A stretch of 34,757 nucleotides of DNA. Source: Syntrophobacterales bacterium (lineage in GTDB: Bacteria; Desulfobacterota; Desulfobaccia; Desulfobaccales; 0-14-0-80-60-11). How positions within the stretch are numbered: position 1 is the first letter of the stretch; each line of letters starts with the position of its first letter. The stretch is taken from the NCBI GenBank assembly GCA_020060385.1, contig JAGVAH010000069.1:1-34757 (forward strand), written 5' to 3'. Below the pieces are notes generated by a model, which was not told the origin of the DNA, made no database searches, and was given only the letters and a program-made list of their open reading frames with translations. Both the position numbers and the translations under genes were made by a program. This document shows positions 1,004 to 5,594 of this stretch, one piece after another.

Positions 1004-1230
1004 TAGTCAGCCGCAGAATAGATGGTGGGCCTTCCCACCCTACACCCTTCTCCAGTTCCTAGTACTAAGTCCAATATAACGGCAATTTTTTGGTGGGGGC
1101 GAACCTGGTGTTCGCCCGCCCCCACAGGGCGAATACAAGATTCGCCCCTACAGCTCAATGCCTTGCGATTGCTAGTATAGTATAATTCCCTGTTATAGCT
1201 GAAAGCTGATAGCTGACCGCTGACAGCTTC
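1004..1230. repeat. Gene-free gap with dispersed inverted repeats
   Basis: This gap holds no ORF worth calling. Positions 1094-1152 form an imperfect inverted repeat (GGGGGCGAACCTGGTGTTCG ... GGGCGAATACAAGATTCGCC), a type of dispersed intergenic repeat seen in many genomes. Positions 1198-1227 carry an iterated AGCTGA(A/T)AGCTGA pattern. Nothing here looks like a clear terminator for the gene ending at 1231. Confidence 0.5.
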
Positions 1231-2694
1231 CTAATCCTGCACAAACTCCCGGCCTTCTTTGAGACACATCTCCGCCCTGGCCAACTGCCTGCCCAAATAA
1301 ATGGCATGGTTGATGTCTGATAGCGCCACGTCCCGTGCGATTTCGTGCTGCAACCTCTCCGCCTTCTTGCCCCGGTACTCCTTCAAGGTCACGTCCCCAA
1401 AGCGGTGCTCCACCAAAATTTCCTTGGCGTCCAGGGTGATGCGGAAATAGCCCATGGGGTCCAGGCGCACCTTGAAAGGCCGCTGGCCGATGACCATCAG
1501 GGCCCGGTCCAATTCTTTGGGGTCCAGGCCCAGGGAATGGCTGATGACGGTGATGGCCCCCGGGGGCAGCCCTGCCCTCTTAGCCACCCAGTTCTGGATG
1601 GCCATCAAGCCATAAAGGTTCAGAGGATAAGCGTCCATGGCGTTGTGGGTGCGGAAGGCGGCGCTTAGTGTCAATTTATTCTCAAATTTGCGGAAAAACA
1701 AGGAAACCAGGCAGGGACGGCCCTCTTTGGCCGCCAGGTCCCGGCGGGTGTCCCACAAGGAGACGTAGGCCTTGCGGTCTTCCGGGTCCTTCTGCAGCCG
1801 CTCCACGCACGCGGCCAGGGCGTCCAACCCGAAGTGGGTCCGCAGACGGTGGCCGTAGTTATAGGTCTCGTCTTCCCGCATCTCCCCCCGGAGGATGTCC
1901 TCCTGGTATTGCCGCAGCTTTTGGGGATCGAGATTGACGGCTTTAAGCTTCTCTTCGGCATCGAACCGGGGCTTTTCCACCACCACCTTGACGTGCTGCA
2001 GCTCCAGGCGGTCCCCTTTCTTCAAAGTAACCCGGCGGCCGAAGCGGGTGAGAAGGTGGAGGACCTCTTTCCAGGCCTCCAGAATGGTATCCCGCACCAC
2101 CAGGTGGGCCCGGGGGTTGCTGGGGAAATGCTGGACTTCCACTTCGGGAAGAGGGATTTCCCGGCGTTGGTTGACTCGCCTAGTGGTTGGCCGCCATTTG
2201 GAGAAAAATCCTTTTATACTATTTAAGGTGTATTCTTCCTTGGAGTCTCCCAACCATTCATAAAGCAAATCTTCTGGAAATAGTGCAGGTGCAACCAGGT
2301 TATCAATAACTCTATGAGTATCTTTTATTCTGCATGGACTGGAAGTATTCCCCCCTCCAGCCAAGAATTTTATCGGCGCATCAGCAATGGGTTCGATCCC
2401 CTTTTTAAAAAAATTGACCAGTTCCTCCTTCGACCCCGACCGATCATGCCCACAAATCAACAGCGTCTGAATCTGCGGATTATACAACAGATTCCGCAGC
2501 ATTTCCCTTAAGCCGTTCCCGTACAAATTCCCGAACACGGCGATGGGGCTGGTCTGGGGGGCCAGGTCCACCCCCGCTTCCCGGAAGCGCCCGATGACGT
2601 AATCCACCTTGGACCACAGAGTCACCACCCCGATGGTCCCATGGGGATTGATCACCGTCAGCCGGTCCGGGAAATAGAGGGGAATGAACTCCAC
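1231..2694 (-). CDS. MtrA-like / thymidylate synthase-like fusion protein
   Basis: The protein has 487 residues. Residues 1-115 read like the MtrA/DUF4346 domain of tetrahydromethanopterin S-methyltransferase: IGVVTLWSKV, then SPIAVFGNLYGNGLREMLRN, then NPQIQTLLICGHDRSG. Residues 200-400 align by eye to thymidylate synthase. YNYGHRLR is at 278-285. RPCLVSLFFR carries the presumed nucleophile Cys328. FRTHN has the presumed phosphate-binding Arg348, and AYPLNLYGL has Asn359, matching the Asn that selects uracil. His386 in ISHSLG sits where TS has H-x-Y, but the Tyr is Leu. The product could act on dUMP or a related pyrimidine nucleotide with a folate or pterin C1 donor. The start is a GTG at 2694 with no clear ribosome-binding site. 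The upstream frame stays open without a start codon until a TAG, so the N-terminus may be incomplete. The MtrA role (corrinoid binding) is not proven. Confidence 0.72.
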   Translation of the reverse strand: MEFIPLYFPDRLTVINPHGTIGVVTLWSKVDYVIGRFREAGVDLAPQTSPIAVFGNLYGNGLREMLRNLLYNPQIQTLLICGHDRSGSKEELVNFFKKGIEPIADAPIKFLAGGGNTSSPCRIKDTHRVIDNLVAPALFPEDLLYEWLGDSKEEYTLNSIKGFFSKWRPTTRRVNQRREIPLPEVEVQHFPSNPRAHLVVRDTILEAWKEVLHLLTRFGRRVTLKKGDRLELQHVKVVVEKPRFDAEEKLKAVNLDPQKLRQYQEDILRGEMREDETYNYGHRLRTHFGLDALAACVERLQKDPEDRKAYVSLWDTRRDLAAKEGRPCLVSLFFRKFENKLTLSAAFRTHNAMDAYPLNLYGLMAIQNWVAKRAGLPPGAITVISHSLGLDPKELDRALMVIGQRPFKVRLDPMGYFRITLDAKEILVEHRFGDVTLKEYRGKKAERLQHEIARDVALSDINHAIYLGRQLARAEMCLKEGREFVQD

Positions 2695-2937
2695 CAGGGC
2701 ACTATACCAAAAATCAGGCCTAAGGGCAAAGAACTCCTGGGAATACTAGGTGAAATCCTTCCCCAGGGTTGCTTCCCCCCCAGGTCATCCTTATCTTTGA
2801 ATTGTCAGGCCGGCGGTGAAAAATGTTGCATAAACTCGCTCTCTGATGGTAGGAAAAGAAGTGTCCGGTGCCTAAAACTCAGGGCTTGGGCAAACCATTA
2901 CCCGCAACAATATCAGCCTTAGATAAGGGGTCAGCCA
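2695..2937. other. Divergent intergenic region
   Basis: This 243-bp gap separates the minus-strand TS-like fusion from the plus-strand GAF protein and must hold both promoters. I see no confident -35/-10 pair. AAGGGG at 2926-2930 is the ribosome-binding site of the GAF gene. Confidence 0.4.
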
Positions 2938-4008
2938 ATGATGTCTACGAAGGACAGGATGTATCTCCAGAGTTTCCAGGATATCAGCAAACTCTTGGGC
3001 TCCACCCTGGCAGTGGATGAGGTGCTGGACCACATCGTCCGGCAGATCACCAAGGCCATGAACCTCAAGGGAGCCACCATCCGCCTGGTCAATCCCAAAA
3101 CCAACACCCTGGAGTTGGTGGCCTCGGTGGGGGTGAGCGAGGAATATCTCCACAAGGGGCCGGTGGACATGGACAAGAGCGTGGCCGAGGCCTTGAGCGG
3201 CCGGCCCGTGGCCATTTATGACGCCACCACCGATTCCCGCATGCAATACCCGGAGAAGGCCAAGGAGGAAGGCATCGCCACCCTGGTGGCCGTGCCCATG
3301 GTCAGCCATGGCCAGGTCATCGGGGTTATGCGCCTGCTGACCCCGGAGCCCCGGGAGTTCACCATGGACGAAGTGGACTTCGCCTGCGCGGTGGGGGATA
3401 TGGGGGCCCAGGCCATCAGCAACGCCAAGATGTATGAGTCCCGCACCCGGGAACTCCAATTCCTCAAAGGCCTCCTGGAAGTCTCCCGGGCGGTTAACTC
3501 GGCCCTGGACGTGAAAAAAGTCCTGCAACTCCTGGTGAAGACCGCCACCACCGCCCTGGACATCAAGGCCGCGGCCGTGCGCCTCCTGGATGTGAAACGC
3601 CAGCAGATGGAGCTGGTGGCCTCCTACGGGCTGAGCGACCGCTATATCAACAAAGGCCCGGTGGGCGCAGATAAATCCCTCACCGAAGCCATGACCGGCA
3701 AGGCCGTATCCATCTACGACGTGGCCCTGGACCCCCGGGCCATGTTTCCCAAGGAATCCGCGGAAGAAGGGATCAAATCCATCCTCTCCGTGCCCATCTC
3801 TTTAAAGGGCAACGTCATCGGCGTGCTCCGCATCTATACCGCGGAACACCGGGACTTCAGCGACGACGAAATCACCTTCATCTCCTCTTTGGCCCAACAG
3901 GCCGCCATGGCCATGGAAAACGCCCGCATGTACCAGAAGCTCAAGGGCGAACACGAAGAACTGATGAGCGACCTCTACCGCTTCACCGGGTTTACCAGGG
4001 GATTGTAA
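2938..4008 (+). CDS. Tandem GAF-domain protein
   Basis: The protein has 356 residues and consists of two GAF domains with nothing else recognisable. GAF-1 spans about residues 8-165 and GAF-2 about 175-340. The two halves are clearly related: both have a 'GATIRLV/AAAVRLL' strand, an ELVAS(V/Y)G(V/L)S turn, KGPV..DKS, and VPM/VPIS...VIGV(M/L)R. No kinase, cyclase, phosphodiesterase or DNA-binding domain follows, so it probably binds a small ligand and passes the signal to a partner protein. The start is the first of two adjacent ATGs, with AAGGGG seven bases upstream. It is soluble, with no signal peptide. It stands alone between a divergent gene and a repeat-filled gap. GAF domains bind cyclic nucleotides, haem, amino acids and other ligands, and the sequence does not say which. 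Confidence 0.85.
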   Translation: MMSTKDRMYLQSFQDISKLLGSTLAVDEVLDHIVRQITKAMNLKGATIRLVNPKTNTLELVASVGVSEEYLHKGPVDMDKSVAEALSGRPVAIYDATTDSRMQYPEKAKEEGIATLVAVPMVSHGQVIGVMRLLTPEPREFTMDEVDFACAVGDMGAQAISNAKMYESRTRELQFLKGLLEVSRAVNSALDVKKVLQLLVKTATTALDIKAAAVRLLDVKRQQMELVASYGLSDRYINKGPVGADKSLTEAMTGKAVSIYDVALDPRAMFPKESAEEGIKSILSVPISLKGNVIGVLRIYTAEHRDFSDDEITFISSLAQQAAMAMENARMYQKLKGEHEELMSDLYRFTGFTRGL

Positions 4009-4282
4009 AAGACAGGGGGCAGGGGACAGGGATTGGAAGCTGGCTGTTTTTCCACTGATGCTACCTCCTGTCCTTTACAGATCATCGATAATTTTTCTTA
4101 GGCCTTGATAATAAGCAGTTTAATTCCCCCTTTGAAAAAGGGGGTGAGGGGGGATTTGCTAAGCGCCTGAAATCCCCCTAAATCCCCCTTTTTCAAAGGG
4201 GGACTTTTAATGCTCTCGGTTTTCTATGAGGCCCTAGATTTCCATTTGCAGAAGGATTTTCCACAGCCTTATTGGAGGCGCG
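4009..4282. repeat. Repeat-filled gap: C5/G5 palindromic element
   Basis: Positions 4121-4209 form a nested palindrome. A small hairpin, CCCCCTTTGAAAAAGGGGG (4126-4144), is followed by a G-run, then the inverted counterpart ending in CCCCCTTTTTCAAAGGGGG. The whole folds as one long imperfect stem. It is a solo copy of the core found inside the 217-bp elements. Positions 4010-4040 carry a G-rich AGGGGACAGGG repeat. No gene is present. Confidence 0.7.
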
Positions 4283-4618
4283 ATGTCTCATTACTATGAA
4301 GAAAAGGATCTGGAAAGATTCCAGGAGATGGGCAAGTATCGGCCCGATCTCTTCGATAATTTCATGAATTATTATCAGGGGGTGATGGCCCCGGGCGGGG
4401 CCCTGACCGTCCGGGAAAAGGCCCTCATCGCCCTGGCCGTGGCCCATACGGTGCAGTGCCCCTATTGCATCGACGCCTACACCCGGGTCTCCCTGGAGAA
4501 CGGCTCCAACCTGGAGGAGATGACCGAGGCCGTGCACGTGGCCGCGGCCATCCGGGGGGGCGCGGCCCTGGTCCACGGCGTGCAGATGCACAACATCGCC
4601 GCCAAGATCACCATGTAG
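4283..4618 (+). CDS. CMD/AhpD-like protein, arsenosugar-cluster type
   Basis: This 111-residue protein belongs to the carboxymuconolactone decarboxylase/AhpD superfamily. The active-site pair is Cys59 and Cys62 in QCPYCIDAYT, placed as in AhpD peroxidases. The helix following it has the usual E-x-x-E-A-(V/I)-H-V-A-A-A. The close match is the small peroxidase-like protein annotated with arsenosugar biosynthesis, which normally sits next to ArsS as it does here; only 10 bases separate the two genes. A thiol-disulfide or peroxide-handling role for the neighbouring radical SAM product is inference. GGAGG five bases before the ATG supports the start. It is cytosolic, with no signal peptide. Confidence 0.85.
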   Translation: MSHYYEEKDLERFQEMGKYRPDLFDNFMNYYQGVMAPGGALTVREKALIALAVAHTVQCPYCIDAYTRVSLENGSNLEEMTEAVHVAAAIRGGAALVHGVQMHNIAAKITM

Positions 4619-4628
4619 GGCCCGGCTT

Positions 4629-5594
4629 ATGATTCCCTTCGCCCGGCAACTGGAGAGCCTGGGATACTCCGGCCTCAGGGCCCTGGAGGTGGGCACCCTC
4701 CAGGTGAACCTGGGCTGGCGCTGCAACCAGGCCTGCAAACATTGCCACCTCCAGGCCGGGCCGGAGCGCCTGGAGCAGATGGCCCTCCCCACCATCCGGG
4801 AAGTCCTGCGGGTGACGGAGACCGGCGCCATCCCGGTGCTGGACTTAACCGGCGGCGCCCCGGAATTAAACCCCCATTTCGAATACCTGGTGGCCACCCT
4901 CCGCCGTCTGGGAGTCCACGTCCGCAGCCGCTCCAACCTCACCGTGCTCCTGGAGCCGGGCAAAGAACATCTCCCGGAGTTTTTCCGGAAGCACCGGGTG
5001 GAACTGATCTGCTCCCTGCCCTATTATCAGCAGGAAATGGTGGACCGGGTCCGGGGGCCTGGCGCCTTTTTTAAGAGTCTGGAAGCCCTGCGCCGCCTCA
5101 ACTCCCTGGGCTACGGCCAGGCAGGCTCGGACCTGGAACTGCACCTTATGTATAATCCCGGGGGCGCGTTTTTCCCGCCCGGGCAAAAGCCCCTGGAAGA
5201 CCTTTTCCGCCGGGAACTGGCCCAACGCCACGAAATCCACTTTCACCATTTGTATACACTGCTCAACATGCCCATCGGCCGGTTCCAGGATTATCTCCGG
5301 AAATCCAGCAATTACGAGAGCTACATGGGCAAGCTGCTGGCCAGCTTCAATCCGGCCACCTTGTCCGGCCTCATGTGCCGCTCCCTGCTCAGCGTCGCCT
5401 GGGACGGCCGCCTCTTTGATTGCGACTTCCACCAGGCCCTGGATCTGCCCCTGCTGCCGGGCCTGCCCCAAACCCTGGAGGAATTCGACCTCCAGGCCCT
5501 GGCCAGCCGGCCCATCCGCCTGGCAGAACACTGCTACGGCTGCACCGCGGGCGCGGGGTCCTCCTGCGGGGGGAGCTTGGCCGGGGCTGAGTAG
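4629..5594 (+). CDS. arsS: ArsS-like radical SAM/Cys-rich protein
   Basis: The protein has 321 residues. The radical SAM cluster motif is CNQACKHC (Cys32, Cys36, Cys39), followed by LTGGAPELNP in the SAM-binding region. The C-terminal domain is Cys-rich: GLMCRSLLSVAWDGRLFDCD, then HCYGCTAGAGSSCGG close to the end (Cys302, Cys305, Cys313). This C-terminal signature is typical of ArsS, the enzyme thought to add the 5'-deoxyadenosyl group to dimethylarsenite in arsenosugar synthesis. Some family members are selenoproteins; here no in-frame TGA is needed. It is co-transcribed with the CMD-like gene just upstream, with weak ribosome-binding sequence. The arsenic substrate is inferred from the family only. 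No ArsM gene is nearby, so the true substrate may differ. Confidence 0.85.
   Translation: MIPFARQLESLGYSGLRALEVGTLQVNLGWRCNQACKHCHLQAGPERLEQMALPTIREVLRVTETGAIPVLDLTGGAPELNPHFEYLVATLRRLGVHVRSRSNLTVLLEPGKEHLPEFFRKHRVELICSLPYYQQEMVDRVRGPGAFFKSLEALRRLNSLGYGQAGSDLELHLMYNPGGAFFPPGQKPLEDLFRRELAQRHEIHFHHLYTLLNMPIGRFQDYLRKSSNYESYMGKLLASFNPATLSGLMCRSLLSVAWDGRLFDCDFHQALDLPLLPGLPQTLEEFDLQALASRPIRLAEHCYGCTAGAGSSCGGSLAGAE

Follow-up and report, generated by a model that had tools for sequence, protein, structure and literature searches.

What does a protein do that joins a domain resembling MtrA to one resembling thymidylate synthase (TS), and does it make thymidylate? The question is raised by a gene in the window, the whole stretch of 34,757 nucleotides of Syntrophobacterales DNA that we analysed. 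Two routes to dTMP are generally recognised, ThyA and ThyX (PMC9931769). We put at about 0.6 the probability that the fusion is its host's own and only thymidylate synthase, a divergent enzyme of the ThyA fold that converts dUMP to dTMP and has replaced ThyX or ThyA. We advance more tentatively, at somewhat less than even odds, the idea that it represents a third bacterial class in which methylene-THF is no longer the reductant, the C1 carrier sits on the MtrA-like and DUF4346 domains, activity depends on a partner protein, Parb-CE, and both ThyX and dUTPase have been displaced. If confirmed, this would be a third bacterial way to thymidylate besides ThyA and ThyX; new one-carbon chemistry would come into view, DUF4346 and Parb-CE would gain functions, and environmental genomes that seem to be without a thymidylate synthase would have to be interpreted differently. 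We found no description of the fusion family, of DUF4346, of Parb-CE or of a third thymidylate synthase in the open-licence literature.

Domain layout of the fusion

The fusion occupies a single intact reading frame whose start agrees with those of its homologues (Table 1). The MtrA-like part of the window protein, taken singly, matches NF002126 over residues 16-101 (E 0.0016), and a profile of the fusion family matches MtrA domains over residues 11-158 (hhalign probability 93, E 2.7e-7) as well as the MtrA structure 8q3v in the PDB (E 4e-4); a second MtrA structure, 5l8x, is matched by a distant relative, L019 (E 3e-6). In its TS part the window protein scores above the gathering score of PF00303 (37.7 against 24.3 bits) and below the equivalog cut-off of TIGR03283 (119.7 against 174.55 bits), and it stays below the cut-offs of NF002495 (26.5 against 327 bits), NF002497 (26 against 327 bits) and TIGR03284 (17.9 against 108 bits) as well. 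PF02511, the ThyX family, gave no match in the window protein at E values up to 10. The first-pass annotation, which had proposed an MtrA-like domain joined to a TS domain, was therefore right about the union, but it had assigned DUF4346 to the N-terminal third, and DUF4346 is a separate domain at the C-terminal end. An MtrA-like domain first and DUF4346 last is also the order of bacterial NF002128 proteins, so that the fusion looks like an MtrA-DUF4346 protein with a TS domain inserted between the two.

Table 1. Positions of the fusion gene, its domains and its conserved residues in the window
Feature	Positions	Strand	Basis
MtrA-like/TS/DUF4346 fusion gene	1231..2694	minus	487 aa; GTG start at 2694, TAG stop at 1231-1233; ORF and codon checks
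N-terminal MtrA-like Rossmann-type domain, residues ~1-165	2200..2694	minus	NF002126, hhalign, PDB 8q3v
Tyr58, position of MtrA Glu54 by gapless match	2521..2523	minus	Tyr in 77/81; Glu in none
Ser88, at or beside the position of MtrA His84 (cobalt ligand)	2431..2433	minus	Ser in 78/81
Thymidylate synthase domain, residues ~200-404	1483..2097	minus	TIGR03283 E 1.1e-34; PF00303 E 1.6e-9; structure match Z 20-24.5
Glu231, equivalent of ThyA Glu58	2002..2004	minus	81/81; assigned by motif, not from a solved structure
Cys328, nucleophile equivalent of Cys146	1711..1713	minus	81/81; alignment to ThyA
R348-T-H350-N351 motif	1642..1653	minus	Arg166 kept, Asp169 replaced by Asn; R348, H350 and N351 each 81/81
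Asn359, equivalent of Asn177 (uracil recognition)	1618..1620	minus	81/81
S-H386-S-x-G389-x-D391, in place of the His207-x-Tyr209 region	1522..1542	minus	Alignment to ThyA
C-terminal PF14251 PterinBD-DUF4346 domain, residues 411-487	1234..1464	minus	Pfam E 2e-21; 77 bits against a cut-off of 29.6

An assembly artefact can be rejected, since some 80 loci encode this three-domain protein in intact form, among them those of the complete genomes of Desulfobacca acetoxidans (G214) and Desulfonema magnum (G264). We note that, immediately upstream of its intact gene, D. acetoxidans has the N-terminal end of the fusion a second time as a partial copy (L136, at G214:C1:2894163-2894321), a frame of 113 aa with 62% identity over residues 2-54.

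The active site of the thymidylate synthase domain

Residue counts here are for 81 fusion sequences, and the alignment to ThyA structures in the PDB is a profile alignment, with ThyA positions in E. coli numbering. In E. coli ThyA, Asp169 contacts the pterin of methylene-THF, and His207 and Tyr209 contact the sugar of dUMP. Cys328, Arg348, Asn351 and Asn359 of the fusion align with Cys146, Arg166, Asp169 and Asn177, which upholds the earlier assignment of Cys328, Arg348 and Asn359 as catalytic; Tyr280 and Arg307, the latter a phosphate-binding arginine, are likewise present in all 81 sequences. The fusion thus shares with ThyA (PF00303, EC 2.1.1.45) the TS fold and invariant equivalents of Cys146, Glu58, Arg166, Asn177 and one phosphate-binding arginine, but it differs in having asparagine for Asp169, serine, glycine or threonine for His207 and mostly aspartate for Tyr209, as well as in its additional N- and C-terminal domains.

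The same alignment puts His386, which had been taken for the catalytic histidine, opposite Gly204, while His207 and Tyr209 fall on Gly389 and Asp391. Position 389 is S, G or T in every sequence and is never histidine, and position 391 is aspartate in 70 of the 81, otherwise S, N or Q, and never tyrosine. The first-pass annotation had reported the tyrosine of the H-x-Y motif as lost, and so it is; the histidine is missing too, and H-x-Y is absent from the whole set. Conserved in the fusions are His350 (81/81), Ser387 (81/81) and His386 (80/81). To judge from the alignment, then, the fusion retains the half of the site that activates uracil and has swapped the half that contacts cofactor and sugar for a new conserved set. 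Retention of the Asn177 equivalent argues for uracil over cytosine, and we reject cytosine or another base as the substrate on this ground.

By sequence, the TS domain is closest to the methanogen-type synthases (TIGR03283) and to four free-standing proteins of the window's phylum (L026, L029, L030 and L031), in which the TS domain is equally short. Unlike the fusion, these four have no extra domains and keep both RSxD and H-x-Y. L019, from genome G223, has the same order of three domains and 28% identity to the fusion but keeps both motifs and with them Asp169, His207 and Tyr209, and its genome has ThyX and no Parb-CE. We note that the four free-standing proteins have a stretch of the GTNQ or RNNQ type at the site of the phosphate-binding SRR motif of ThyA.

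Genomes that carry the fusion

A genome scan yielded 80 fusion loci (of 109 relatives) from about nine phyla, to which two viral contigs are added. The hosts belong to Desulfobacterota, Bacillota, Armatimonadota, Abditibacteriota, Acidobacteriota, Nitrospinota, Synergistota and Patescibacteria, and, within Pseudomonadota, to Magnetococcales and Thiotrichales. Most phyla cluster in a maximum-likelihood tree; the Patescibacteria sequences lie inside Acidobacteriota, a placement that is consistent with lateral transfer and is to be read with care given several long branches. We reject a phage origin, as the viral contigs matched by the family alignment number only two and phage matches to the single window protein are confined to TS domains.

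Our panel comprised 56 genomes, 40 with a fusion that lacks H-x-Y and 16 others, namely 15 controls and G223 with its H-x-Y-containing fusion. ThyX was found in two of the 40 fusion genomes and in 14 of the 16 others (Fisher p 2e-9), a strong dUTPase match in one of the 40 against 12 of the 16 (p 4e-8), and Parb-CE (PF24392) in all 40 against one of the 16 (p 1e-12), although these p values overstate independence because the panel genomes are related. The two fusion hosts that also have ThyX are G219, where the matches are split, and G263. Looking for a separate thyA, as the first-pass annotation had suggested alongside thyX, we found no other PF00303 protein above the cut-off in the 40 fusion genomes. 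PF00303 failed to detect even the fusion in six genomes of the panel, and it also overlooked an intein-bearing TS-like protein of D. magnum; this limited sensitivity makes the absence of every other TS strong, not absolute. A search with the window protein itself, in the 17 fusion genomes of the window's phylum, brought up no further TS, its matches being confined to the fusion, a single DUF4346 protein and the partial copy in D. acetoxidans. The 40 fusion genomes contain no real thymidine kinase, just weak matches of 20-24 bits in longer proteins, and nearly all keep dTMP kinase. dCMP deaminase, which is a source of dUMP, is present in all 19 genomes tested, these being fusion-bearing genomes of the window's phylum or genomes of its order, the window's own included. 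With no other ThyA above the cut-off, mostly no ThyX, no thymidine kinase, dTMP kinase kept and dCMP deaminase often in the operon, dTMP is the expected product; the different pyrimidine product that had been suggested for this enzyme is, on the same evidence, unlikely.

The case is sharpest in D. acetoxidans, one of the 40 fusion hosts, whose complete genome encodes no ThyX and no other ThyA. This organism grows on acetate alone (PMC3156406), so that its thymidylate synthesis is unaccounted for unless the fusion provides it, and a remodelled, fused TS with an obligate partner of the ParB fold would fill this gap. Thymidine auxotrophy met by salvage can be rejected, given the growth of D. acetoxidans on acetate and the lack of a real thymidine kinase in the fusion genomes.

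We also note that the fusion genomes almost never have a canonical dUTPase, their weaker dUTPase matches being dCTP deaminases, which raises the question of how dUTP is disposed of. The sole panel genome without a fusion that has Parb-CE, G110 from the window's order, has dCMP deaminase and no match to ThyA, ThyX or the fusion; this seeming lack of a TS of any kind probably reflects an assembly gap, if not a different solution to thymidylate supply.

Genes for Parb-CE, a HAD hydrolase and dCMP deaminase lie near the fusion at 38, 38 and 25 of 82 loci, respectively, co-directional with the TS gene, and at many loci the four form an operon. dCTP deaminase is in the flank at 5 of the 82, in Magnetococcales. 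At one locus (L018) dCMP deaminase is upstream of the fusion, and in D. acetoxidans Parb-CE lies just downstream on the same strand; the window's genome has Parb-CE (G000:C93, L119) and dCMP deaminase (G000:C131) unlinked. Parb-CE genes that do not adjoin a TS gene have no common neighbours that would explain their role. On a viral contig of 286,688 bases (L113) the genes for the HAD hydrolase, Parb-CE, dCMP deaminase and the fusion follow one another at 1089-4497. Directly upstream of the corresponding operon in D. magnum is a gene for a second TS-like protein of 589 aa including an intein (L137:595-2364), with RSWN instead of RSWD and without H-x-Y, and L070:3187-3957 encodes a shorter relative of it, apparently free of the intein.

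How the fusion might make thymidylate

If the fusion is a thymidylate synthase, its dUMP would come, in Desulfobacterota members, mainly from dCMP deaminase. Cys328, together with Glu231, Arg348 and Asn359, would be expected to bind dUMP covalently at C6 in the manner of ThyA, and the enzyme would most likely go on to methylate C5 of the resulting adduct to give dTMP. We infer that the C1 unit, the reducing equivalents or both are delivered otherwise than in ThyA, because Asp169 and His207/Tyr209 have given way to His350, Asn351, His386, Ser387 and Asp391 and because most hosts have no DHFR with which to recycle to THF the DHF produced in a ThyA reaction. DHFR is found in 5 of the 40 fusion genomes and in none of the 16 others, and since it is also missing from ThyX controls its absence from 35 fusion hosts is weak evidence on mechanism. 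The changed residues at the donor site bear out part of the first-pass idea of an unusual C1 donor, the part that linked this donor to a corrinoid finding no support (see below). The flanking MtrA-like and DUF4346 domains would most likely provide a docking site for the C1 carrier, for which our leading guess is a reduced pterin, in preference to a corrinoid; pterin binding by DUF4346 is putative and is taken from the Pfam name. Parb-CE would be an obligate partner in the pathway, one that either phosphorylates or otherwise activates an intermediate or does the work of the absent dUTPase on dUTP. ThyX would have the same cellular role as we infer for the fusion, and ThyX hosts also are without DHFR, but ThyX is unrelated to the fusion in fold and sequence.

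The alternative that survives best, though we think it rather unlikely, is that the fusion carries out ordinary ThyA chemistry, converting dUMP and methylene-H4folate (or methylene-H4methanopterin) to dTMP and a dihydro pterin that another reductase recycles, with the extra domains serving stability or channelling. The four catalytic residues (Cys, Glu, Arg, Asn) and the phosphate-binding Arg307 are retained, the methanogen TS TIGR03283 is the closest profile, and five hosts do have DHFR, all of which fits this. It sits poorly with the replacement of Asp169 by Asn and the loss of H-x-Y in 81 of 81 fusions, both features being kept by free-standing relatives in the same phylum, and with the 35 hosts that have no DHFR, and it leaves the 40-of-40 link with Parb-CE unexplained. 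Together, the replaced Asp169, the missing H-x-Y motif, the lack of DHFR in most hosts and the constancy of Parb-CE suggest, without proving, something other than the plain ThyA reaction.

A second alternative would divide the work into two steps: the TS domain would act as a dUMP hydroxymethylase that releases THF and forms no DHF, Parb-CE would be a phosphotransferase that makes the 5-hydroxymethyl a leaving group, and a further enzyme would carry out the reduction to dTMP. What recommends it comes largely from predicted structures. The AlphaFold2 model of the fusion, made with 58 sequences, has a mean pLDDT of 92 and a pTM of 0.75. In a fold search with the TS domain of this model the closest solved structure was AfhB, a phage flavin-dependent dCMP hydroxylase (PDB 9iqu and 9iqc; Z 24.5, rmsd 2.0 over 202 residues), and the CMP hydroxymethylase MilA (Z 22.5) also matched slightly better than ThyA (Z ~20-21, at 20.9, with an rmsd of 2.4 over ~200 residues), although the Z values differ little, and in part because of domain size. 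AfhB differs from the fusion in acting on dCMP with FAD, according to the PDB titles, and the two share 18% identity; flavin use by the fusion is a possibility raised by the structural likeness. The model of Parb-CE (pLDDT 93) matches sulfiredoxin (Z 7.8), free serine kinase (6.6), SbnI (6.3) and ParB (6.2), with modest Z values throughout, and nearly all of the rows listed in this fold search belong to the ParB/Srx superfamily; the Parb-CE sequence found nothing useful in the PDB. Glu102 and D117-G-x-H120-R121 of Parb-CE are invariant in 38 sequences, which makes an ATP- or NTP-using activity likely for this protein with its predicted ParB/sulfiredoxin fold. A two-step route would draw on the ATP-binding Srx/free-serine-kinase fold of Parb-CE (Z 6-7.8) and on these invariant residues, and it would account both for the absent DHFR and for the obligate partner. 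No candidate for the reductase was identified, and we regard this route as distinctly unlikely.

Less probable again is that the fusion is no thymidylate synthase but an enzyme of nucleotide modification or regulation, dTMP being made by an enzyme that has escaped recognition. An active site that differs from that of ThyA, and the carriage of the operon by a large viral contig, would suit such a role. Against it, the fusion takes the place of ThyX in 38 of 40 genomes drawn from many phyla, it often sits with dCMP deaminase in hosts that have no thymidine kinase, and D. acetoxidans manages on acetate alone.

In MtrA the cobalt is held by the pair His84-Glu54 (PMC4915002). In the fusion both positions have changed almost always (Table 1); the hhalign alignment has a gap at the Glu54 position and likewise shows no Glu there. 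MtrA-DUF4346 proteins (NF002128), by contrast, keep equivalents of both, including the unfused 406-aa protein that the window's genome itself encodes (L114:1166-2386, minus strand, G000 contig C107). The loss of these ligands means that corrinoid binding is not supported, and we have rejected a corrinoid methyl donor as the leading idea: that methyl-cobalamin held by the MtrA-like domain methylates the dUMP enolate would suit the kinship of this domain with MtrA and would make reductant and DHFR unneeded, but with the pair gone from the fusion and kept by its unfused counterpart in the same genome it is highly improbable.

Elsewhere in the window, at 4283-5594, we noted by eye a small gene resembling carboxymuconolactone decarboxylase followed by a radical-SAM gene with the motif CNQACKHC, which together resemble a pair of the arsenosugar type.
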